Shown here piece by piece: positions 7,380 through 42,454 of a stretch of 42,454 nucleotides of DNA (positions are counted from its first letter, which is position 1; each line of letters starts with the position of its first letter). Below the pieces are notes generated by a model, which saw only the letters and a list, made by a program, of their open reading frames with translations, was not told where the DNA came from and made no database searches. Origin of the DNA: an uncultured Ruminococcus sp. (lineage in GTDB: Bacteria; Bacillota; Clostridia; Oscillospirales; Acutalibacteraceae). Position numbers and translations under genes: made by a program. Where the stretch lies: contig CADASG010000015.1 in NCBI GenBank assembly GCA_902790475.1, forward strand, positions 1 through 42,454. Reading direction: 5' to 3'.

Positions 7380-9023
7380 TTACTGCATGCAGGTACCGAT
7401 CCACTCAATAAAGTTCTCGGTGCTGTCGCCTGTGCGTTCCGCCTCTTCGTGTCCCTTCTCCCACACGGTTTCAAAGTCAACGTTTTTGACGTCACTGTTA
7501 TGCTCAAGCGCAAGCGCGAGATTCGCTTCCGTGGTCACCGAGGTGTTGAATTGCTTAATGCCCGTTCGGATACGCCAGTATTCAGCGACATCGGAGGTGC
7601 CGAAGCCCTCTCGTTTTTCCATCAGATAATAGAGAGGCGTATACATATTCACGCGCTGTTCCAAGGTGCTGTCCTGTGCGTCGGTCTTTTTGAAATCCTC
7701 GGCAAAATCCGCGGCGGCATCGTTGTTGAGCTTTGTCAGGATATCTCCGAGTATTTTGTCAAAATGCGATCCCTTGCCGTCTCCCGTACCAAAAAGGTTG
7801 TTTTCACTCTGCGGAGTGTCAAAACCAAACTGATTGTCGGAAGCATTTTTACACGCTTTTGCAAAGTCCGCTATGCTTGAGATCACAGCCGTATTAGTTG
7901 CTTTATCATAGGTGACCCATTTTTTGTCCTTATTCAGACTGTCGATATATCCCTGCGCTGAGCCGTAGCTGTTTTTGAGATCCGGAGAGTCAAACACGGT
8001 GTCGGACAAATAATGGTTGAGCGATCCCTCGATAACGCCTTTGATATAATCATAATAGCTTCCTGCCTGGAAGATGCCCTCTTTTGATTCTGTCAGAGTC
8101 AGCGCGTTGCCGTCCTTGTCGGTGAAGCCTGCCTGATTGATATACTCAGCGAAGGCTTTGGCAAGCTCGTCGGAGATAGCGTTTTCCTCAGCCGAACGAT
8201 CCTTGCGCGTACAGCCCATCATCCATTCATATTCCGCGTTGGCGGTATCAAGATCGGTGATTGGACACCATGCCATTACTCCTGCCACTTTATCGGACAC
8301 GCCCTGTACCGCGCCGATCTCTTTCAAATACGGATCATATAACTCGCTGTTGCCCGAAGCGCCGAGGATCGTAGCCTGAGCGCCGCCGCCGCTCATGCCG
8401 AATGCAAAGATGCGGTTTGCGTCTCCTGCCAGTTCGTCGTCGCAGTATCGGATGTAACGGACAGCCGCCTTGAGATCTGTCACTCCGGAGGGAGCGCCCT
8501 CGTCGATACCGCGGCAGCCCGGGAAAATATATACCATGCCCTGAGAGGTATACTCCTTTATCTTATCCAAAAAGTAGTTCAGAGCATTTTCCGGCATGTC
8601 TGAGGTCAGCGCCTCAGCCGCGTAATAGCTGGGCGTTTCGACCGGCAGGACAATGGGTGCGTCGGCGGAAGTATAGCTGCCGACCTTAGCCCCCTTCTTT
8701 ACGCTGCAGGTATATGTGCCGTCGCCGTTATCGGCCGCGTCCATATAATCGGCAGGAACGAATACCGAAAGCTTCTCATATTTTTCGTCGGCAGGCTTCT
8801 CGCAGTAATCAATGCCGAGCTGATAATAGATTTTTTCATTCGGCAAATACTGCCACTTGCTGTTATCCGGCTTGGGTAGATCGGATTTAACGGCGATTGT
8901 AGTCGCAGCTTCGGTCTGCGCCGTCGTTTTGGTCTGTGATGCTTTTGAACCGCTGTTTTGACCGCATCCGGCAAACGCCGTAATCATTACAGCGCTCAGT
9001 GCCAATGATAGAACTTTTTTCAT
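7380..9023 (-). CDS. tannase-like alpha/beta-hydrolase lipoprotein
   Basis: 547 aa. Lipoprotein signal with lipobox FAGC (Cys20), followed by a Ser/Thr/Ala/Lys-rich linker. Alpha/beta hydrolase with the nucleophile elbow GMSGGGAQ (Ser211), preceded by FPGCRGIDEG, and C-terminal YWRIRTG and VWEKGHEEAE segments that fit the Asp and His ends of the triad. The block WCPITDLDTANAEYEW and these segments resemble subtype B tannases and related feruloyl/gallate esterases of gut Firmicutes, so a role in cleaving phenolic esters from plant material at the cell surface is plausible. Substrate is inferred, not shown. It lies in one unit with the dockerin protease downstream. Confidence 0.75.
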   Translation of the reverse strand: MKKVLSLALSAVMITAFAGCGQNSGSKASQTKTTAQTEAATTIAVKSDLPKPDNSKWQYLPNEKIYYQLGIDYCEKPADEKYEKLSVFVPADYMDAADNGDGTYTCSVKKGAKVGSYTSADAPIVLPVETPSYYAAEALTSDMPENALNYFLDKIKEYTSQGMVYIFPGCRGIDEGAPSGVTDLKAAVRYIRYCDDELAGDANRIFAFGMSGGGAQATILGASGNSELYDPYLKEIGAVQGVSDKVAGVMAWCPITDLDTANAEYEWMMGCTRKDRSAEENAISDELAKAFAEYINQAGFTDKDGNALTLTESKEGIFQAGSYYDYIKGVIEGSLNHYLSDTVFDSPDLKNSYGSAQGYIDSLNKDKKWVTYDKATNTAVISSIADFAKACKNASDNQFGFDTPQSENNLFGTGDGKGSHFDKILGDILTKLNNDAAADFAEDFKKTDAQDSTLEQRVNMYTPLYYLMEKREGFGTSDVAEYWRIRTGIKQFNTSVTTEANLALALEHNSDVKNVDFETVWEKGHEEAERTGDSTENFIEWIGTCMQ

Positions 9024-22235: not shown

Positions 22236-22661
22236 TTAAATGAACGCCCGCATTTCTCTGATGTGTTCCTCCTCGGCGTCGAGCATTTTTTTGGCGAGCA
22301 GAGTTACGCCGGGGTTTTGTCGGTTATAATCGCGAAGCCGCCGCACCAGCTTGTTTACTCCCATGGTGCTGCCCTTTATCATCATTTCCGCGATGTGGGA
22401 AGCCGACGCGTCGCGCTGCAGGTCGCGCCCTGCGGCTATTCGCGTCATGGTTTTGACGACCGGGCTTATGTGCTTTGCCTTCTCGCCCCGGCTTGTCAGC
22501 ATTTTGTGAGCCGCGCCGTAAAACCTGCCGTAACGCGCGAGCTGGTCGCAGAGCACGCGGTCTACCGCCATGCTGTGCTCCATCCTGCGGATATTCGTGA
22601 TGCCCTGACAGCCCATTTCGGCGTTTTGCAAAATACAGTTGAGCATTTCAATATCGTTCAA
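22236..22661 (-). CDS. DUF2383-like helical protein
   Basis: About 141 aa from a TTG start at 22661, chosen because AGAGGTGA lies six bases upstream; the first in-frame ATG is too far from it. All-helical with a ferritin-like feel: NDIEMLNCILQNAEMG at the start, SASHIAEMMIKGSTMGVN in the middle and a closing helix LDAEEEHIREMRAF. This pattern fits the DUF2383 family of Clostridia, often linked to spores or stress; the role is unknown. It stands alone between the repeat copy and the terminator of the CBM21 gene. Confidence 0.75.
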   Translation of the reverse strand: MNDIEMLNCILQNAEMGCQGITNIRRMEHSMAVDRVLCDQLARYGRFYGAAHKMLTSRGEKAKHISPVVKTMTRIAAGRDLQRDASASHIAEMMIKGSTMGVNKLVRRLRDYNRQNPGVTLLAKKMLDAEEEHIREMRAFI

Positions 22662-33338: not shown

Positions 33339-33707
33339 TTATGGATGCAGCAGCAAAGCGATCCTTTTCCCAAGCAAGACACCCAGAACACAAAAAGATA
33401 CACTGAGCAGAATATAAATACTTCCGAACAAATATGATTTTTTCTCAAACAAGGAGAGCGCTTCAAGCGAAAATGTTGAAAAGGTCGTAAAGCCTCCGCA
33501 CACTCCTGTTTTCCAAAATAAGACTGTGTTATCGGAAGCATTGCTTTTGTTGCTTACAACACCGACAATAAAACCGATCAGTATTGCTCCTATGATATTT
33601 GTGATAAGCGTAAGAATAGGAAATCCCGTTTTTACCGGGATAAGACTGATTGCATACCTTCCGATCGCCCCCAACGCGCCTCCGAGAGCAACAAATAAAA
33701 AACTCAT
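33339..33707 (-). CDS. crcB: fluoride channel FluC/CrcB
   Basis: 122 aa, four membrane helices. Conserved GGALGAIGRY, TNIIGAILIG and GVCGGFTTFSTF motifs of fluoride exporters are intact. Only one gene is present; FluC can work as an antiparallel homodimer. No fluoride riboswitch is seen in the 48 bp upstream; expression probably comes from the MATE promoter. GGAGGG five bases before the ATG. Confidence 0.95.
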   Translation of the reverse strand: MSFLFVALGGALGAIGRYAISLIPVKTGFPILTLITNIIGAILIGFIVGVVSNKSNASDNTVLFWKTGVCGGFTTFSTFSLEALSLFEKKSYLFGSIYILLSVSFCVLGVLLGKRIALLLHP

Positions 33708-33755
33708 TTTTCCCTCCGTGAATCCGATTTATCTTACCAAAAGTATAGCACAAAA

Positions 33756-35114
33756 TTAAAGATATGAAAAGAGGGAGCAGCTTCCTTTAAGTAAAATACA
33801 CGCAATGATCGCAGTAATTATTTCCGCAAAGGGAAACGTCAGCCATACGAGCCACGCATTGGATAAATCCGGAGTAATAAGCAGCGACAACGCCCACGCG
33901 ACCGGAAGAATCAACACAAGCTGTCTTAGAAGCGAAATAATAAGCGAGGAAACACCCTTGCCGAGCGCTTGAAATACGCCTTGAAGTGATAAGCTGATTC
34001 CGGCAAAGAAAAAGCCTGCTGAGATTATCCTTGTCGCGCTGACACAAAGAGCCTGTGTGCCTCCCGACAAACCGAATGCGGCGCAGAGCGGTTCGGCAAT
34101 GATCTCCAAAAGCAATGTGCGTGACAACATTATCACAGATGTATAGAGCACGCCGTATTTAATGCCTGACTTCACGCGCTGATCATCCCTCATTCCGTAA
34201 GCGAAGGACACGATCGGCGTGATCGTATCTCTCATACCAAATGCGGCAAATAAAATGAACTGCTGGATTTTATAATACAAGCCGTAAGCCGTGACAAGAG
34301 AAGCGTCTACAGCGCCTAAAATCAGATTGATGCCGTAGGTCATCACCGACATCAAAGCCTGCGCAATGATAGCAGGCAAGCCGATTTTGTAAATCAGCTT
34401 TATCGTTGTCTTATCGGGACGAATATAGCGCAAGCCGTTTTTGATGCTTTTGTTCTTTTTGATATGGAAAAACAGCGCGATCAAAAAAGAGGCTATCTGA
34501 CCGATAACCGTTGCCAGAGCAGCACCCTGCACGCCCATTTTCGGACAGCCGAGCAAGCCGTAGATCATTATCGGATCAAGAATGATGTTAATGACTGCGC
34601 CTGAGATTTGAGCCAATGTCGATTGAACGGTAAGCCCTGCCGCCTGCAGCACCTTTTCAAATACACTGAAAAACACGATCCCGACAGAACAAACACAGCA
34701 GATCTGCAGATAGGATACCGCCATCTCACTGATTGCGTTATCTGAGGTTTGACTGCCGATATACGCGTCCGCTCCGAAGAAACCAAACAACATAAAAACA
34801 GCGGTTATCACTATACCGAGAAATACACCGTTGCCGGCTGCTTTGGAAGCCTTTTCTTTGTCGCCCTCGCCCAAGCTGCGCGCAAGTAAGACGTTTACGC
34901 CGACACCTGTCCCTATTCCTATTGCTACCATCAGCATTTGTACCGGGAAAGCGAGCGTCAGGGCGTTGATGGCTGCTTCGCCGCCCTCCATATTAGACAC
35001 AAACGCGCTGTCTACGATATTGTAAAGCGCCTGCAGCATCATCGATACTATGATCGGCAAACCCATTTTTATCATCAGTTTGTTCACAGGCATTGTTGCC
35101 ATTTTGTTGTTCAT
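33756..35114 (-). CDS. MATE-family multidrug efflux pump (MepA-like)
   Basis: 452 aa, about twelve membrane helices in two bundles; N-terminal LMIKMGLPIIVSMMLQALYNIVDSAFV and VQMLMVAIGIGTGVGVNVLLAR are typical of the MepA-type MATE group. It exports cationic compounds in exchange for sodium or protons. The ATG at 35114 follows GGAGGT; a TTG four codons earlier lies inside that site. Preceded by a leader RNA with an intrinsic terminator (35115-35186), so transcription is probably attenuated until a ligand is sensed. Leads the unit MATE - crcB - kinase. Confidence 0.94.
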   Translation of the reverse strand: MNNKMATMPVNKLMIKMGLPIIVSMMLQALYNIVDSAFVSNMEGGEAAINALTLAFPVQMLMVAIGIGTGVGVNVLLARSLGEGDKEKASKAAGNGVFLGIVITAVFMLFGFFGADAYIGSQTSDNAISEMAVSYLQICCVCSVGIVFFSVFEKVLQAAGLTVQSTLAQISGAVINIILDPIMIYGLLGCPKMGVQGAALATVIGQIASFLIALFFHIKKNKSIKNGLRYIRPDKTTIKLIYKIGLPAIIAQALMSVMTYGINLILGAVDASLVTAYGLYYKIQQFILFAAFGMRDTITPIVSFAYGMRDDQRVKSGIKYGVLYTSVIMLSRTLLLEIIAEPLCAAFGLSGGTQALCVSATRIISAGFFFAGISLSLQGVFQALGKGVSSLIISLLRQLVLILPVAWALSLLITPDLSNAWLVWLTFPFAEIITAIIACILLKGSCSLFSYL

Positions 35115-35186
35115 AATTACCTCCAAATACGCAAAAAAGGCGCAAGTCCGAAATGCCGGACTTACGCCTTTAAGCTACTCACATTG
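35115..35186 (-). ncRNA. attenuator/riboswitch-like leader of the MATE gene
   Basis: Leader of about 70 nt between promoter and MATE start. It contains UAGC (35173-35176), then GCGUAAGUCCGG, whose 14-bp terminator stem (35137-35150 against 35157-35170, including one G-U pair) is followed by T6 just before the ribosome site. The core is shared with the leaders at 35.8 and 36.5 kb. A terminator in the leader of a MATE gene in a Clostridia-type genome fits the mepA (guanidine-IV) riboswitch class by position; the detailed match needs a covariance search. Confidence 0.6.
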
Positions 35187-35192
35187 TTTTGG

Positions 35193-35221
35193 ATTATATC
35201 ATAATTTAATTAAAAAATCAA
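35193..35221 (-). promoter_or_regulatory. promoter of the MATE unit
   Basis: Minus-strand -35 TTGATT (35216-35221), 17-bp spacer, -10 TATAAT (35193-35198), inside ATGATATAAT, a 10-mer also present at the other two leaders. Confidence 0.75.
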
Positions 35222-35225
35222 GCGG

Positions 35226-35792
35226 TCAATTCCACTCTTTTTCTCTGTTTTTGATGTCCTTACGAAACAAAAGCCTGAAAATCCTTCTGACAAGCGGCTG
35301 AATAAACAGATGCTGCGAGAAGAAGGCAAACGGAAGGTTGAAGCACACGAGCTTGAACCAATGACAGAGCAATACGATCACATTAAAGCCCTCAAAGAAC
35401 GGATAGTAAATGATCGCGGCGATAAAGCTCATCGCAGGACACATTATTGCGACTGTCACGGTGATAATAGCTCCCTCGAAGATAACCGGATTGGTCGTTT
35501 TCATATCGAACATTTTGGACGCGATCTTGAATGAAAGCGGACTTCCGACAAGCACCTCGAGCGTATAGGCAAAGGCAAACTCCGCCAGCACGACAGCCCA
35601 GATCGGCAGCATTGTCCCGAACATCATAATGCCGCCCTGTTTGTTGACGGCGGTCAGCACGCTGCTTGTGTAGTTGAAGCCGCGCAGCATATCGCCGTTA
35701 AGGACATAGATGTTGTAGAACACAAAGGCGTGTACTGTGATGACGACAGTGATGAACGCAAACACCATTCTTTGAAATTGATTTCTCGGCAT
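35226..35792 (-). CDS. DUF2798-like membrane protein
   Basis: 188 aa with four membrane helices in two similar halves. The opening MPRNQFQRMVFAFITVVITV and the ending NLPFAFFSQHLFIQPLVRRIFRLLF fit DUF2798-type proteins, whose function is unknown. AGGAGG eight bases before the ATG. It has its own promoter and an attenuator-like leader with the same GCGUAAGUC core as the MATE leader, so it is likely induced by the same signal and may help handle the same compound. Confidence 0.8.
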   Translation of the reverse strand: MPRNQFQRMVFAFITVVITVHAFVFYNIYVLNGDMLRGFNYTSSVLTAVNKQGGIMMFGTMLPIWAVVLAEFAFAYTLEVLVGSPLSFKIASKMFDMKTTNPVIFEGAIITVTVAIMCPAMSFIAAIIYYPFFEGFNVIVLLCHWFKLVCFNLPFAFFSQHLFIQPLVRRIFRLLFRKDIKNREKEWN

Positions 35793-35900
35793 AAAGAATT
35801 CCTCCTAAAATTAAAAGACACAAGCCGCGGACGCGCCGATTACAAATACACTGTACCGTAATCAGACTTACGCGCCGTGCGCTGCTTGTGTCGTTATGTA
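35793..35900 (-). ncRNA. attenuator/riboswitch-like leader of the DUF2798-like gene
   Basis: Leader of about 100 nt. Outer stem GACACAAGC/GCTTGTGTC (35817-35825 against 35884-35892) followed on the minus strand by TTTTAATTTT; inside it AGC and then GCGUAAGUCUG (35863-35873) and an alternative CGUAA/UUACG hairpin. The mutually exclusive pairings and terminal U-run suggest transcription attenuation. Longer than the other two leaders by an inserted stem. Confidence 0.55.
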
Positions 35901-35908
35901 TTGGAATT

Positions 35909-35937
35909 ATTATATCATATTCAGACAATCAGGTCAA
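35909..35937 (-). promoter_or_regulatory. promoter of the DUF2798-like gene
   Basis: Minus-strand -35 TTGACC (35932-35937), 17-bp spacer, -10 TATAAT (35909-35914), again within ATGATATAAT. Confidence 0.75.
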
Positions 35938-35939
35938 GG

Positions 35940-36200
35940 TTATGGATTATCTATAATCTCAAAATTCCCCGTCAGTATATCAACGTATTGCAGGGAATGC
36001 GTTCTCGGAATGCCTGTTGTGTATTCCTCAATGCAAAAGATATTTTTATAGACTCCCTTTATCTCTACAACATCATTCTTTATTTCCAAGCGTGGATGGT
36101 GCAGTTTTATATTCACGTGGATTTTGGGATTTGTTGCGTAAAGATAAGCAACTTTTTTCTTGATCATATCAAGCTGTGTCATAAAAATCTCCTTATTCAA
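35940..36200 (-). CDS. Veg-like small protein
   Basis: 86 aa. The central part (IHVNIKLHHPRLEIKNDVVE, IKGVYKNIFCIEE, HSLQYVDILTGNFEI) fits the Veg/DUF1021 pattern: a beta barrel-like fold with a final SYxDILTxxVE-type strand. Bacillus Veg affects biofilm gene expression; the role here is unknown. AAGGAG upstream. Second gene after the 79-residue protein, 24 bp apart, expressed from the leader-bearing promoter at 36548-36576. Confidence 0.7.
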   Translation of the reverse strand: MNKEIFMTQLDMIKKKVAYLYATNPKIHVNIKLHHPRLEIKNDVVEIKGVYKNIFCIEEYTTGIPRTHSLQYVDILTGNFEIIDNP

Positions 36201-36224
36201 ACAGGTGCAGATCCGTCTTCATCA

Positions 36225-36464
36225 CTAACTCAGATAATCCCCAACAGGACTTGTGTTATACTGCTTGATGATTTTGATGATAACGGAATCGTCAGGCTGA
36301 GTTTCTTCGCTTATGATCTTGTACTGTGTTTGGTTTTTTTCCAAAGACGCTTTGTACCGTGCAACTTCTTCCTGCACTAATTTCACCGCGTAGCTGTGAA
36401 CGACATCTTCTTTCAGCATAAAGTGAAGCGTTTGGCAAATACACGCTGCTTTTACTCTTTTCAT
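36225..36464 (-). CDS. conserved-looking 79-residue protein
   Basis: 79 aa, start ATG with AGGAG eight bases upstream: MKRVKAACICQTLHFMLKED, a helical middle (YAVKLVQEEVARYKASLEK) and a beta-type end (YKIISEETQPDDSVIIKIIK). I do not know a named family; the composition and ribosome site are those of a real gene. It is the first gene of a two-gene unit with the Veg-like protein and sits behind an attenuator-like leader. Confidence 0.75.
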   Translation of the reverse strand: MKRVKAACICQTLHFMLKEDVVHSYAVKLVQEEVARYKASLEKNQTQYKIISEETQPDDSVIIKIIKQYNTSPVGDYLS

Positions 36465-36541
36465 TGTTTTTTCTCCTGTTCTGAAAAATTAAAACGTGCA
36501 GGCTTCAACCGGACTTACGCAGTTAAAACGCTACACGTTGC
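36465..36541 (-). ncRNA. attenuator/riboswitch-like leader of the 79-aa/Veg-like operon
   Basis: Leader of about 75 nt with GUGUAGC, then GCGUAAGUCCGG (36509-36520 on the minus strand), closed by AACGUG(U)AG/CU(G)CACGUU (36493-36501 against 36531-36539) and followed by TTTTAATTTTT. Same core and order as the MATE leader: UAGC, 6-9 nt, GCGUAAGUCCGG, terminator. Confidence 0.55.
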
Positions 36542-36547
36542 AATATT

Positions 36548-36576
36548 ATTATATCATTTCCGAATCTGTTTTTCAA
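36548..36576 (-). promoter_or_regulatory. promoter of the 79-aa/Veg-like operon
   Basis: Minus-strand -35 TTGAAA (36571-36576), 17-bp spacer, -10 TATAAT (36548-36553), within ATGATATAAT as at the other two leaders. Confidence 0.75.
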
Positions 36577-36702
36577 ATGGCGATTTTGAACAAAAATCAA
36601 ATTTGATTCCAAACATACAGCTGTATATTTTAATTGATATCTGCTCATTACATTTACCGAGCAAAGCTGACTTTCCTGTTCTGTTCTCAACCTTATATTT
36701 TT

Positions 36703-36745
36703 CCAAAAGTATATATCTAAAGACTAAAGATATGAAAAGAGGGAG
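36703..36745. repeat. degenerate duplicate of the MATE 3' end
   Basis: CCAAAAGTATA ... TAAAGATATGAAAAGAGGGAG repeats, with the same orientation and a few differences in the spacer, the sequence at 33737-33777 that covers the end and 3' flank of the MATE gene. On the minus strand it still reads YSLFSYL-stop. It looks like a remnant of another MATE copy or a recombination scar. Confidence 0.6.
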
Positions 36746-38570: not shown

Positions 38571-40112
38571 TTAATACAATAGAAATACCGCCCGAGCAAA
38601 CTCGGGCGGCGGTGGTGGAGCAGGCGACGTCATAGTCGAACACTGCTCCGTGCAGGTTTTATCGGAGTTAAAGGCTTCTTCTATTTCCTCTAACGGTATG
38701 TCATCAATGCTCATCGATTTCTTGCTGGCGTTGATTATCAGGGTGAAATGATCATCGTAAAGATAGACGGAATGTACAAGGATATTCACGATGGCTCTGC
38801 GTTTGTTGACATCATCCAAGGGCATATCGCAGACAAAATCAAGGAAGGCGAGTATCTGTGCTTCCGAAAGGCAGATACGTTTGTTTTGCTCAATGGCGAG
38901 CTGTTCCTCCAGCGCTTCTTTTTCAGCCTGACGCTTGTTAAGGCGTTCTGTCAGCATTGGAACGGACTGTCCTTGTTCGATACCTCGCCATAGATTTTCT
39001 ATGGCGGTATCCGCTTCTCGGATAGCTTTCTTTAACTGCTTGACCGTCAAGTTATCGGGACTTTTGCTGCATTCCTCGGCAACCTTTTGAGCAATAAACT
39101 TAATGTTGTCATCAGTAAGTAGTTTCAAACATTCTGCAATCACTCTGTCCTCAATTTTCTTTTTGCTGACGATAGTTTTATCACAGCGTTTCTTTCGGGC
39201 TTCCTTGCAAATATAATAGTGATACTGCTTGCCGGTTTTACTTGTACCGCCGTAGCCGACCATCATATTTTTGCAGTGACCGCAAAACAGCTTTGTTGTC
39301 AGCAGATACTCGCCCTCACCGTGCGTTCTGGCTGGAGCCTTTTTGTTTTTGTTCAGTATATCCTGAACCTTGTAGAATAAATCATCATCTAATATCCTCG
39401 GCATTCCGCCAGGCGTTTCCTGTCCCTTATACATATAAACTCCTATATATCTTTTGTTGCTCAACATACGGCTGAGACTGTTATAAGTGAAATCGTTGCC
39501 TAGTGAAGTTCTGACTTTGCGGCGTTTTAAATCCTTTACAATTTCTGCTTTGGTCTCGCCACTTGCGTATCGCTCAAATATTTCACGCACGATTTTGGCT
39601 TCGTCCTCATCAACATAAAAGCGTCTATCTTTATCCACCTTGAAGCCAAGTCCGGGATTACTGCCGTTGGATAAACACTTTTGTGCGTTGATCTCCATCC
39701 CTCGGTGGATCTTCTGAGAAAGCTCGGCGGAAAAATACTCCGCCATACTCTCTAACACACCTTCGACGAGAATACCGGATGCGTCGTCAGTGATGTTTTC
39801 TCTTGCCGACAACACCCTGACGCCGTTCTTTTTCAGCTTTGATTTGTAGATTGCACTGTCGTAGCGGTTACGGGCAAATCGGTCAAGCTGATAAACCAAA
39901 ATTCCCTCAAAAGCGTGTTTCTCGCTGTCTGATATCATACGCTGAAATTCAGCTCGATTATCATATTTACCGCTAACAGCTCTATCTATGTATTCTCCGA
40001 TAATTGTATAATGATTTTGCTCAGCATATTCATAGCACACTTTCAACTGACCTTCAATAGATTGCTCAGTTTGGCTGTGGCTCGAAAAGCGGGCGTAAAT
40101 TACTACATTCAT
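38571..40112 (-). CDS. large serine recombinase of the mobile element
   Basis: 513 aa from the ATG at 40112 (AAAGGAGG upstream). Resolvase domain about 1-150 with catalytic Ser in YARFSSHSQ and the arginine motif YQLDRFARNRYDS, recombinase domain about 165-265 (SLGNDFTYNSLSRMLSNKRYIG), zinc ribbon (LFCGHCKNMM ... YICKEARKKRC), coiled coil and C-terminal domain. It catalyses integration and excision of the element to which the relaxase and ParB belong. The last codons read through a CCGCCCGAG/CTCGGGCGG hairpin (38588-38609) that also acts as terminator, which explains the odd PPPPP ending. Confidence 0.93.
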   Translation of the reverse strand: MNVVIYARFSSHSQTEQSIEGQLKVCYEYAEQNHYTIIGEYIDRAVSGKYDNRAEFQRMISDSEKHAFEGILVYQLDRFARNRYDSAIYKSKLKKNGVRVLSARENITDDASGILVEGVLESMAEYFSAELSQKIHRGMEINAQKCLSNGSNPGLGFKVDKDRRFYVDEDEAKIVREIFERYASGETKAEIVKDLKRRKVRTSLGNDFTYNSLSRMLSNKRYIGVYMYKGQETPGGMPRILDDDLFYKVQDILNKNKKAPARTHGEGEYLLTTKLFCGHCKNMMVGYGGTSKTGKQYHYYICKEARKKRCDKTIVSKKKIEDRVIAECLKLLTDDNIKFIAQKVAEECSKSPDNLTVKQLKKAIREADTAIENLWRGIEQGQSVPMLTERLNKRQAEKEALEEQLAIEQNKRICLSEAQILAFLDFVCDMPLDDVNKRRAIVNILVHSVYLYDDHFTLIINASKKSMSIDDIPLEEIEEAFNSDKTCTEQCSTMTSPAPPPPPEFARAVFLLY

Positions 40113-40125
40113 TTTTACCTCCTTT

Positions 40126-40150
40126 GCTCTCCGCCGAAACGACGGAGAGC
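40126..40150 (-). promoter_or_regulatory. hairpin in the recombinase leader
   Basis: GCTCTCCG/CGGAGAGC stem immediately before the AAAGGAGG ribosome site. It may limit translation or bind a regulator of recombinase expression; no further evidence. Confidence 0.45.
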
Positions 40151-40199
40151 TGTATTTATATATTACAGGATTTGCAGAAAACAATCGAATGTATCAAAT

Positions 40200-40380: not shown

Positions 40381-41202
40381 TCATCTTTCACGGTCTCGCT
40401 GTCGCTTGAGATAGCGTTGGTAGTAATCGCAGGCTTTGAGGATAAAACCTTCAAGCTGATTGTCGGTTGCATTAGGTGCAAACTTTCTCACCTTATCCAT
40501 CGGGATTTTCAGCGTTTCACGCTGGTTCGCTTTATCCTCTGACATAATATTTTCGATTAATCGTGGTGAAATCAGTCCGTCACGGACAGCCTTGTGCATA
40601 CGAAACGCCTGAGAATAGGACGGCGTGCAGTCATCACGCTCGATAACATCCAGCAGGTTGTGCTGTAAATCCTCGTCCAAATAAGAAAGCTCAACGCCAA
40701 CAGAAAAAGCGATTTTGCCCTCGTCCATCAGCTTGAGTAATTCAGGGATAAGATTTGTTAAGCGTATGTAGCGCTGTACTTGCCTTCCGCTTTCAGAATC
40801 AGAAATGGTATCTCGTGACTTGTGGACAAGTTGTCCACAAGCCTTTCCTTGATGACTTATTGCTTCAAGTTTCAGCTTGTAAGCAAACGCCTTTTCCGAC
40901 GGCAAAAGATGCTCCCTGTGAAGGTTGCTGTCCACCACCATAATCGCCGCTTCGTCACGACTTACGGGACGAATAAAAGCAGGAACTTCTGCAAGCCCTG
41001 CCTTCTGCGCCGCACGGAAACGACGGTGTCCGGATATGATTTCGTATTCGTCGGTTGTGCCTTCAAGCGGTCGGACAATCAGCGGCGTCATAATGCCCTG
41101 CTGCTGAACGCTCTCGATAAGTCTGTTCATCTCGTCGTTGTCGAGCACCTGATAAGGGTGGTCTTTGAATTCGTGTAGTTTGTTGATTGATATATTGGTC
41201 AT
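40381..41202 (-). CDS. parB: ParB-family partition-like protein
   Basis: 273 aa. ParB/Srx nucleotide-binding domain about 1-100 with ISGHRRFRAAQKAG and LHREHLLPSEKAFAYK, then a helix-turn-helix region (ESGRQVQRYIRLTNLIPEL). No ParA partner is in view; in integrative elements lone ParB-like proteins may aid maintenance or regulate transfer. Starts with ATGA overlapping the relaxase stop, so it is cotranscribed and translationally coupled with the relaxase. Confidence 0.92.
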   Translation of the reverse strand: MTNISINKLHEFKDHPYQVLDNDEMNRLIESVQQQGIMTPLIVRPLEGTTDEYEIISGHRRFRAAQKAGLAEVPAFIRPVSRDEAAIMVVDSNLHREHLLPSEKAFAYKLKLEAISHQGKACGQLVHKSRDTISDSESGRQVQRYIRLTNLIPELLKLMDEGKIAFSVGVELSYLDEDLQHNLLDVIERDDCTPSYSQAFRMHKAVRDGLISPRLIENIMSEDKANQRETLKIPMDKVRKFAPNATDNQLEGFILKACDYYQRYLKRQRDRER

Positions 41203-42454
41203 CGCTCATTACTCCTTTGTTTTGATTTTGTTTTTGATTTCCGTCCTCTTGCGAGGTTTTGCGCTTGTATTTCACAGCGTATATTTTCGTTGATCTTCGG
41301 TTCGTCCTCAATAATTGAGAGGGCGATTTTCTTTTCCCGGCGGAGCTGCCGCAACAGCGTTGTGCAATCGTCACGGCTCTTTTTCAGTTCCTTGATCCTG
41401 TCGTCGTCATCGCAGCGGCGCAGTTTGTTATACACCTTCTTACGCAGTTCGATAACTTCTTTGATCTCCTTATCGGTATCGGTGATAAAAGATTTAACGT
41501 CGTCGATCGTATGAAGCTTTTTGTTTGAAACCAATGTCACTTGCCGTGAAAACCTGTCCAAATATCTCCACGCCTCACGCATTTCAGCCGACAACGGCTT
41601 GCGCTGATTCCACTTCGGCAGCTTACCCATCAGGAACATATAATGTAGGTACTTGGCATATAAACCGCCGAAGCATTTGAGCAGCTTGAAACTGCCACGG
41701 TATCGGATTTTCTTCGGTATAAAATCTCTCATTTTAACTCTGGAATAGTGATATTCATCAAAGTGCTTGTAGCCGTACTGCTGATAATGAACCTTGATTC
41801 TGCGGAGAATGGCTTCGTTTGTATATTCATCACCCAAGCGGTACATTCTCACTGACTTGTTGCTATTAACGGAGCATATTGTCCAATATCTTCGCCGAGG
41901 ATTGGTGTTGACGATAAAGCCTTGACTTTTCATTACACGGTCAAAACTTGATATACTGTATGACCGTTCTATACCGAAATCAATCGCTTTCCGCATAAGA
42001 TTGAACGTTGTCGGCTCGCCGTTTTTCTCCGCAAAGTAAATGCTTCTCGGTGTTTTGCCCGACGGATTTTTGATCACGGTCAAATTGTGTTCGGCGCACA
42101 GCTTGTCCGACAGAGCTCTGAATTTCCAGTAAGCGCCCTCGTTGCAATCGAACTTTTTGCCCGTCCACATATTAGTGCTGCAAACGACAAAATGATTGTG
42201 CAGCGTACCGGTATTCAGATGCGTTGCTACCAGCACCTGATACTCGTTGCCCCACATTTTCTTTGCCAACTCAACACCGATTTTGTGGCAAAGCTCCGGC
42301 GTGATCTCGCCTGTTTTGAAACTTTGATAGGCGTGATAGGCAACGTTGCCGCCGTTTTTTCCGAAGCGTTCCTGCACGGCGTTCATTTCCTCAAAAGCAG
42401 TTTCGGCGTTGCAGTTTACACCTGTCACATAGCAACGGCTTTCCGTTTTTGCTT
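41199..42454 (-). CDS. relaxase/mobilization nuclease, partial at the right edge
   Basis: At least 417 aa in view; the 5' end lies beyond the window and the frame stays open to the last base, so the GTG at 42428 is internal. The three-histidine metal motif (ATHLNTGTLHNHFVVCS) and the preceding YHAYQSFKTGEITPE region identify a MobA/VirD2-type (Rlx) relaxase that nicks the transfer origin. The C-terminal half is rich in Lys/Arg and coiled coil. With ParB, the small protein and the serine recombinase it defines an integrative mobilizable element. Confidence 0.93.
   Translation of the reverse strand, partial: AKTESRCYVTGVNCNAETAFEEMNAVQERFGKNGGNVAYHAYQSFKTGEITPELCHKIGVELAKKMWGNEYQVLVATHLNTGTLHNHFVVCSTNMWTGKKFDCNEGAYWKFRALSDKLCAEHNLTVIKNPSGKTPRSIYFAEKNGEPTTFNLMRKAIDFGIERSYSISSFDRVMKSQGFIVNTNPRRRYWTICSVNSNKSVRMYRLGDEYTNEAILRRIKVHYQQYGYKHFDEYHYSRVKMRDFIPKKIRYRGSFKLLKCFGGLYAKYLHYMFLMGKLPKWNQRKPLSAEMREAWRYLDRFSRQVTLVSNKKLHTIDDVKSFITDTDKEIKEVIELRKKVYNKLRRCDDDDRIKELKKSRDDCTTLLRQLRREKKIALSIIEDEPKINENIRCEIQAQNLARGRKSKTKSKQRSNER

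Follow-up and report, generated by a model that had tools for sequence, protein, structure and literature searches.

Three neighbouring transcription units in a 42,454-nt stretch of DNA from an uncultured Ruminococcus sp. (the whole stretch is referred to here as the window) each begin with a leader carrying the same short core and a terminator-like hairpin, raising the question of whether these leaders are copies of one regulatory RNA and, if so, what that RNA would respond to. A sequence-only reading of the locus had suggested that a single ligand, perhaps guanidine, acts through guanidine-IV riboswitches to control the three units as a small regulon. Our analysis suggests that the motif is a real, widespread and apparently undescribed cis-regulatory RNA. 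We consider it most likely (probability of roughly 0.68) to be a terminator-embedded element representing a new orphan riboswitch class that would turn its genes on.

Three transcription units and their leaders

All three units lie on the minus strand, and each possesses a near-consensus promoter with a TG before the −10 box: TTGATT-N17-TATAAT for the MATE unit (35221–35193), TTGACC-N17-TATAAT for the DUF2798-like gene (35937–35909) and TTGAAA-N17-TATAAT for the operon encoding a 79-aa protein and a Veg-like protein (36576–36548). These are the top three of the ten promoter-like matches in the region, in agreement with the TTGANN-N17-TATAAT promoters originally proposed for the units. The MATE efflux transporter gene (33756–35114, minus strand; PF01554, E value 2.8e-41; TIGR00797 over cut-off) probably starts at the ATG at 35114, judging from the ribosome site. 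The DUF2798-like gene (35226–35792, minus strand) encodes a 188-aa membrane-protein-like product without a Pfam match at an E value of 0.001 (best match: EBP, 0.019). It is homologous to DUF2798-like targets elsewhere (BLASTP against the L032 homologue: 26 % identity, E value 1e-13); among these DUF2798-like proteins, only that of L112 matches PF11391 over cut-off. The third unit opens with the gene for the 79-aa protein (MKR..CICQTLHFMLK; 36225–36464, minus strand), which has 12 homologues downstream of switches (54–81 % identical). Its AlphaFold model (mean pLDDT 89.7) predicts a beta-alpha-beta-beta arrangement and returned nothing from the PDB at an E value of 0.001 or below (best 0.066). 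The same operon contains the Veg-like gene (35940–36182, minus strand; PF06257, E value 2.5e-6, 27.9 bits, cut-off 25), for which the ATG at 36182 is the likely start codon. Among the named relatives encountered, a sheep-derived Ruminococcus metagenome genome (L137) is the closest; its proteins are 82 % (MATE), 88 % (Veg) and 91 % (DUF2798-like) identical to those of the window.

An imperfect direct repeat (33730–33777 and 36696–36745; 85–89 %, in two pieces) brackets the three-unit cluster, one copy beginning at the 3′ end of the MATE gene, and a serine recombinase-like gene (38571–40184) and a relaxase-like gene (41199–42428) are positioned outside it; the cluster may have moved as one piece. 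Immediately downstream of the MATE gene is a CrcB/FluC fluoride channel gene (33339–33707, minus strand); no fluoride riboswitch was returned by Rfam in the window at gathering thresholds.

A pattern search located the GCGTAAGTCYG core at 35157–35167, 35863–35873 and 36510–36520. Allowing up to one mismatch, the window contains five matches against 1.0 expected, one of the two additional matches falling in the far arm of the MATE terminator and the other at 22299, an unrelated site. The core follows an AGC at a spacing of 6, 7 and 9 nt in the three leaders, and all three fold into a terminator-like hairpin, with U residues after it, ahead of the ribosome site (z −5.5, −4.3 and −4.2). A search of the 2.74-Mb assembly (94 % complete) for AGC-N4-14-core returned the three leaders only, with none in the reversed control; the arrangement first described from the sequence alone (AGC, 6–9 nt, core, terminator) is thus confirmed at all three sites. 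A consensus terminator scan reported none of the three leader terminators, probably because of the limits that the scan places on loop and tail.

The conserved RNA is a compact hairpin of approximately 42 nt, located almost at the transcription start, in which an internal loop with unequal sides (5′ GWGYA, 3′ GUAARUCCR) separates a covarying stem (P1) from a short second stem (P2). P1 pairs the bases immediately 5′ of the GWGYAGC block with those immediately 3′ of the core; P2 is GC/GC, often with a loop that appears GNRA-like by eye. In the MATE unit, this candidate aptamer occupies 35148–35188 (minus strand; P1 AAUGU/GCAUU, P2 GCU/GGC), with GAGUA opposite GUAAGUCCG in the internal loop, and the terminator (35131–35171, minus strand) is built from the 3′ strand of the switch, GCGUAAGUCCG pairing with CGGACUUGCGC ahead of a U-run. 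In the 79-aa/Veg-like operon, the hairpin lies at 36501–36544 (minus strand; P1 CAAC/GUUG, P2 GCG/UGC), with GUGUA opposite GUAAGUCCG, and the terminator (36485–36539, minus strand) uses the 5′ strand of the switch, AACGUGUAG pairing with CUGCACGUU before a U-rich stretch. The two leaders carry one conserved RNA, scoring 53.3 and 49.8 bits, respectively, with our first search model (R1) and 48.5 and 46.9 bits with model R2, both sequences being present in both model alignments.

The notion of a leader RNA common to all three units holds for these two outer leaders; the middle one is a poor fit (R1: 12.9 bits, E value 0.18; unreported by R2 at an E value of 5 or below, searched in L001). The diverged switch of the DUF2798-like gene (35855–35895, minus strand; AAGCAGC...GCGUAAGUCUG) has an A-U in place of a nearly invariant G-C pair and is without a canonical P1; its terminator spans 35807–35892 (minus strand; GACACAAGC...GCUUGUGUC, then U-rich). 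A near-identical copy of this leader occurs in L007 without an identified target gene, and the A-U swap recurs in L222 and, by eye, in L130, both preceding genes homologous to the DUF2798-like gene. The remaining seven DUF2798-like leaders are ordinary or slightly variant members, and the sheep relative's gene, 91 % identical to that of the window, has a different, unrelated leader without the core. In L130 (approximately 7860–8000, minus strand), a DUF2798-like gene with 56.5 % identity to that of the window follows the diverged leader ACACGUUGU...ACGUAAAUCUGAUCACGG, and the UCUGAUYACGG common to this leader and the window's middle leader suggests a subclass. From these sequence comparisons, we take the middle leader to be a diverged member, less certain than the outer two.

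Distribution and covariation of the hairpin

A new model built from the leaders and searched in related genomes, as had been proposed from the sequence alone, showed that the switch recurs in many genomes of the family, order and class. R1 (E value ≤0.1) detected it in 63/398 family genomes, and R2 (E value ≤0.01) in 75/297 order, 48/293 class and 8/249 phylum genomes; these overlapping samples count the window's own genome, and the family search used the first model at a looser cut-off. Named carriers found by pattern scan include Gemmiger formicilis, Oscillibacter valericigenes, Hominifimenecus microfluidus and Ruminococcus flavefaciens, and many rumen and gut metagenome genomes also carry the switch; a pattern match in Arthrobacter is probably due to chance. 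The 287 aligned rows gave 273 distinct matches after removal of duplicates (two of the 82 sequences of set A7, described below, among these), covering the loci of most matches of the family, order, class and phylum searches. This set counts matches rather than genes, tandem copies being counted twice, and keeps a few likely false matches (e.g. L156, L212, L266 and L247).

Covariation in homologous leaders had been set as a test of the shared RNA, and it is strong in sets of 16, 45 and 82 sequences, much of this material having been found or aligned using models that presuppose the structure. Within the genus, a search of 61 genomes for a −10 box and core gave matches in 17 and none in the reversed control; the matches of two of the 17 genomes (L015 and L018) are apparently chance, and that in L005 is the opposite strand of a real leader. 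The 16 genus sequences (set A2: pattern-found, taken from 20 minus two near-duplicates and two diverged sequences, with P1 read by eye) have 93.0 % of cells paired and 35 double-change cells, compared with 12.1±2.7 in shuffled alignments and at most six when structures are slid along the alignment. MAFFT placed the P1 partners in the same columns, and a MAFFT alignment of 45 sequences (set A4: 14 of the 16 plus 31 of 34 from a later search) contains 72 double-change cells versus 23.0 shuffled. The 82 later sequences (set A7) contain 119 versus 44.8, being outside model building yet found with and aligned to the model. P1 varies between CAAC/GUUG, AAUGU/GCAUU or ACAUU, and AUC/GAU, around a near-invariant internal G-C pair (45/45, 66/66, 82/82, and 81/82 with one A-U). 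Positions Y13 and R32 also behave like a pair, with U-G 121, U-A 43, C-G 17, C-A 0 and U-U 3 times (n=184, the matches among 193 that fitted the search expression). P2 may be extended: in the sheep relative, the MATE leader, missed by R2, has an insert there of approximately 50 nt by eye.

These data bear on whether only the terminators are conserved, the core merely reflecting the descent of duplicated leaders without any sensing. That the three units adjoin in the window and that the terminators overlap the core would fit such an origin; however, members build their terminators from opposite strands, P1 and the loop are kept, P1 covaries and the motif is present in several families, so that this explanation is largely refuted and scarcely credible.

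Taken in isolation, the window's hairpins do not fold better than shuffled sequences (z 0.56, 0.47 and −0.51), and the predicted best fold contains P1 in the MATE leader only, the other two leaders and that of L163 folding otherwise. Either something must help the hairpin to fold or the fold is weak: a hairpin without predicted stability of its own fits the need for a ligand, yet it counts against the model too.

Hairpin, terminator and the proposed switch

Promoters (up to three mismatches) precede 144/192 matches (shuffles: 19 %); for 126 of the 144, the −10 box ends 1–5 nt before the model, placing the expected transcript start at or close to P1. Terminators of −12 kcal/mol or below follow 259/273 matches, compared with 32/273 random places in the same loci. 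By a scripted rule that over-calls in places (e.g. the second copy in L055, and L145), the 5′ arm of the first terminator is drawn from the hairpin's 5′ strand in 140 matches, and from its 3′ strand in 120, with none found in 13 (n=273). Since the first terminator thus uses one of the hairpin's own strands in 260/273 matches, hairpin and terminator are mutually exclusive, which is the layout of an ON-switch. MATE members use both strands (5′ 60, 3′ 89, none 3), and the 5′ strand predominates for CarD-like (31/36), Veg (12/12) and 79-aa (13/15) targets.

We propose that the nascent mRNA starts with the switch hairpin and that a ligand, probably a small toxic compound, would stabilise P1, the internal loop and P2. 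The stabilised hairpin would withhold one strand, blocking the intrinsic terminator and allowing RNA polymerase to read through into the downstream gene for a pump or helper; if ligand is absent, the strand would be recaptured and transcription would stop. The terminator would be formed from the hairpin's 5′ strand in some members and from its 3′ strand in others. The motif combines a covarying structure and conserved loop nucleotides with a position upstream of genes and a platform overlapping the candidate sensor, features that are general criteria for riboswitches. The comparison itself establishes the conserved and covarying fold, its position at the promoter and its overlap with the terminator; ligand binding, direct sensing by the RNA, the ON direction and the kind of ligand are what we infer from the sequences.

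A protein or RNA acting in trans could take the place of the ligand. One such scheme, in which the hairpin is the site of a trans-encoded RNA-binding antiterminator protein that stabilises it against the terminator under drug or stress conditions, would account equally well for the fold, the terminator overlap and the regulon structure, and would also suit hairpins that are not predicted to be stable alone. The 79-aa target protein was considered as such a regulator and rejected, since it is missing from 40/40 switch-bearing genomes outside the order (of 44; control 7/10). A constant neighbour gene was judged from the first downstream genes only. Patchy spread over many families together with conserved loop nucleotides is usual for riboswitches, and this is the pattern seen here, which argues against the antiterminator protein; we regard it as unlikely. 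Less likely still is a kinetic attenuator reading the speed or stalling of RNA polymerase (e.g. under inhibitors or DNA damage), in which a slow polymerase would favour the 5′ hairpin. The position of the hairpin at the very 5′ end is consistent with this, as are CarD-like targets with a CarD/TRCF RID domain and one UvrA target; however, such a device would not need a highly conserved internal loop (GWGYA/GUAARUCCR).

Tandem copies occur at 9/163 loci, mostly each with its own terminator by eye, and at 20/163 loci neighbouring units each have their own copy, 14 of these 20 comprising 79-aa, Veg or CarD followed by MATE, as in the window. In L055 (1501–1599), the second of two tandem copies ends right before the ribosome site and, by eye, is without a terminator; it might act on translation. 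In the tannase leader of L145 (345–384 onward), the only clear U-run lies between the ribosome site and the start codon, and this leader may use a translational platform. Downstream of the switch-bearing MFS units of L037 and L038, and likewise in L033, where no gene was assigned, lies a same-strand match to the TPP riboswitch; the match in L038 is truncated by the end of the locus and scores below threshold.

Target genes and relation to known RNA classes

A candidate downstream reading frame was picked mechanically for 266/273 matches; these are first genes only, joined by BLAST and checked with Pfam/NCBIfam on representatives, and some singletons are surely wrong. The targets of the 273 matches are MATE (152), CarD-like (36), 79-aa (15), MFS (14), Veg (12), DUF2798-like (8), tannase/esterase (4) and cytidylate-kinase-like (2), with 30 other or none. 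CarD-like targets carry a CarD/TRCF RID domain, and singletons include an amidohydrolase, a FecCD permease, a rubrerythrin and one UvrA. The mix of CarD, Veg, 79-aa and pumps points to no single ligand. A known riboswitch in front of MATE orthologues, which could have indicated the ligand, did not emerge: the six loci found among 59 genomes have no Rfam riboswitch; three of them have the switch motif weakly (24.2, 24.2 and 17.0 bits). In L190, a different leader hairpin and terminator (GAACACGUGUAAGUG...CUUACCGUGUUC) lies upstream of a MATE relative (48 % identical); R2 reports no switch in this leader, which is possibly another class or a distant variant.

Three of the four esterase targets match subtype A tannase (E values 4e-129 to 3e-136), the fourth being another esterase. 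Read at full length, the tannases downstream of the L082 and L087 switches score above the curated cut-off, and that of L145 is a 377-aa frame below it. Subtype A tannase occurs in 6/293 class genomes, and the switch directly precedes it in two (G876 and G893, both genes over cut-off). The rarity of tannase in the class, set against three tannase targets, hints at plant phenolics; however, in four of the six tannase-bearing genomes, the window's included, no switch precedes the gene (one weak match, L273, 11.3 bits), making phenolics only a lead. The window itself encodes a secreted-looking subtype A tannase (7380–9023, minus strand; NF041555, 615.9 bits, over cut-off), 26 kb from the switch cluster, with no switch before it according to R2. 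On this weak hint, one could envisage that gut and rumen bacteria use a new riboswitch class to detect a phenolic from plants, or a related aromatic toxin (of galloyl, catechol or phenolic-acid type), and to switch on exporters (MATE, MFS), tannase and accessory proteins, with a terminator-embedded aptamer whose platform could be built from either strand; we regard this specific version as speculative and rather improbable.

No Rfam 15 family reached its gathering score at the motif, the presence of a guanidine-IV model in that release being unconfirmed; running the Rfam covariance models on the leaders, as had been suggested, thus gave no identification. Atu_C9 (RF02503) was found below threshold at several terminators on either strand (best 30.2 bits versus 40, E value 4.8e-4), which we take as similarity between terminator palindromes, and other Rfam families appeared at the window leaders only at E values of 2.4 or worse. 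We found no paper on the motif in the open-access literature; survey supplements and an alignment repository were outside its coverage, and a prior computational listing is possible.

The proposed guanidine-IV identity was not borne out. In the available text of PMC9788692 and PMC7736828, guanidine-IV and its orphan variant Gd4v are two hairpins joined by a pseudoknot, with the 3′ hairpin serving as terminator; the two-hairpin pseudoknot is also given in the accessible part of PMC11611296. MATE genes are among the targets of both and a terminator is the expression platform (PMC7736828, PMC9788692, as far as their available text goes), which would favour membership of, or kinship with, this class. 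The switch is, however, a single hairpin located about at the transcription start and built into the terminator; the two-hairpin pseudoknot is not seen, and the guanidine-IV reading is therefore not supported. The −10 box ending 1–5 nt before the model (126/144) leaves no room for a first hairpin, no Rfam family reached threshold (with the above proviso on the guanidine-IV model), and no SugE-type gene is present among the annotated clusters and singletons (30/273 other or unassigned, annotated in part). We give a guanidine riboswitch a very slight chance and consider guanidine unlikely as the ligand. The small regulon stands in part: pump, membrane protein (through a diverged copy) and 79-aa/Veg-like operon share the switch, and guanidine as its ligand is unlikely.

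If the motif is a riboswitch, it would be a widespread one (48/293 sampled class genomes), unmatched in the library of known RNA families, and would reveal a compound handled by a large set of uncharacterised efflux pumps. The small size of the hairpin makes ligand screening and structural work practical.

Compared with known systems, the switch resembles guanidine-IV (GGAM-1/mepA), in the portions of the reports available, in having MATE among its targets, in termination control and in a distribution mostly in Firmicutes; it differs in having one hairpin with an internal loop in place of two hairpins and a pseudoknot, and in its other target genes. It shares with Gd4v, on the same partial sources, MATE targets, a terminator, orphan status and enrichment in mammalian guts, whereas Gd4v has the guanidine-IV-like two-hairpin pseudoknot and a transaminase as its main target. 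Like yjdF, one of the orphan leaders that may respond to toxic compounds and, according to the accessible text of PMC4793209, a binder of many azaaromatic compounds, it is an RNA leader of genes with unclear roles; no Rfam family matched at the motif. The available part of PMC6478431 describes HMP-PP (thiS) as a compact aptamer within an intrinsic terminator, ligand leading to read-through, and also found in tandem arrangements, there with TPP riboswitches and here as copies of the same motif. The two differ in their genes, in a possible pseudoknot in thiS and in that no Rfam match links them. If it is a riboswitch, the motif would join HMP-PP as an example of an aptamer inside a terminator and would be, in contrast to thiS as described there, one whose terminator can use either strand of the hairpin, suggesting that read-out from either strand is possible.
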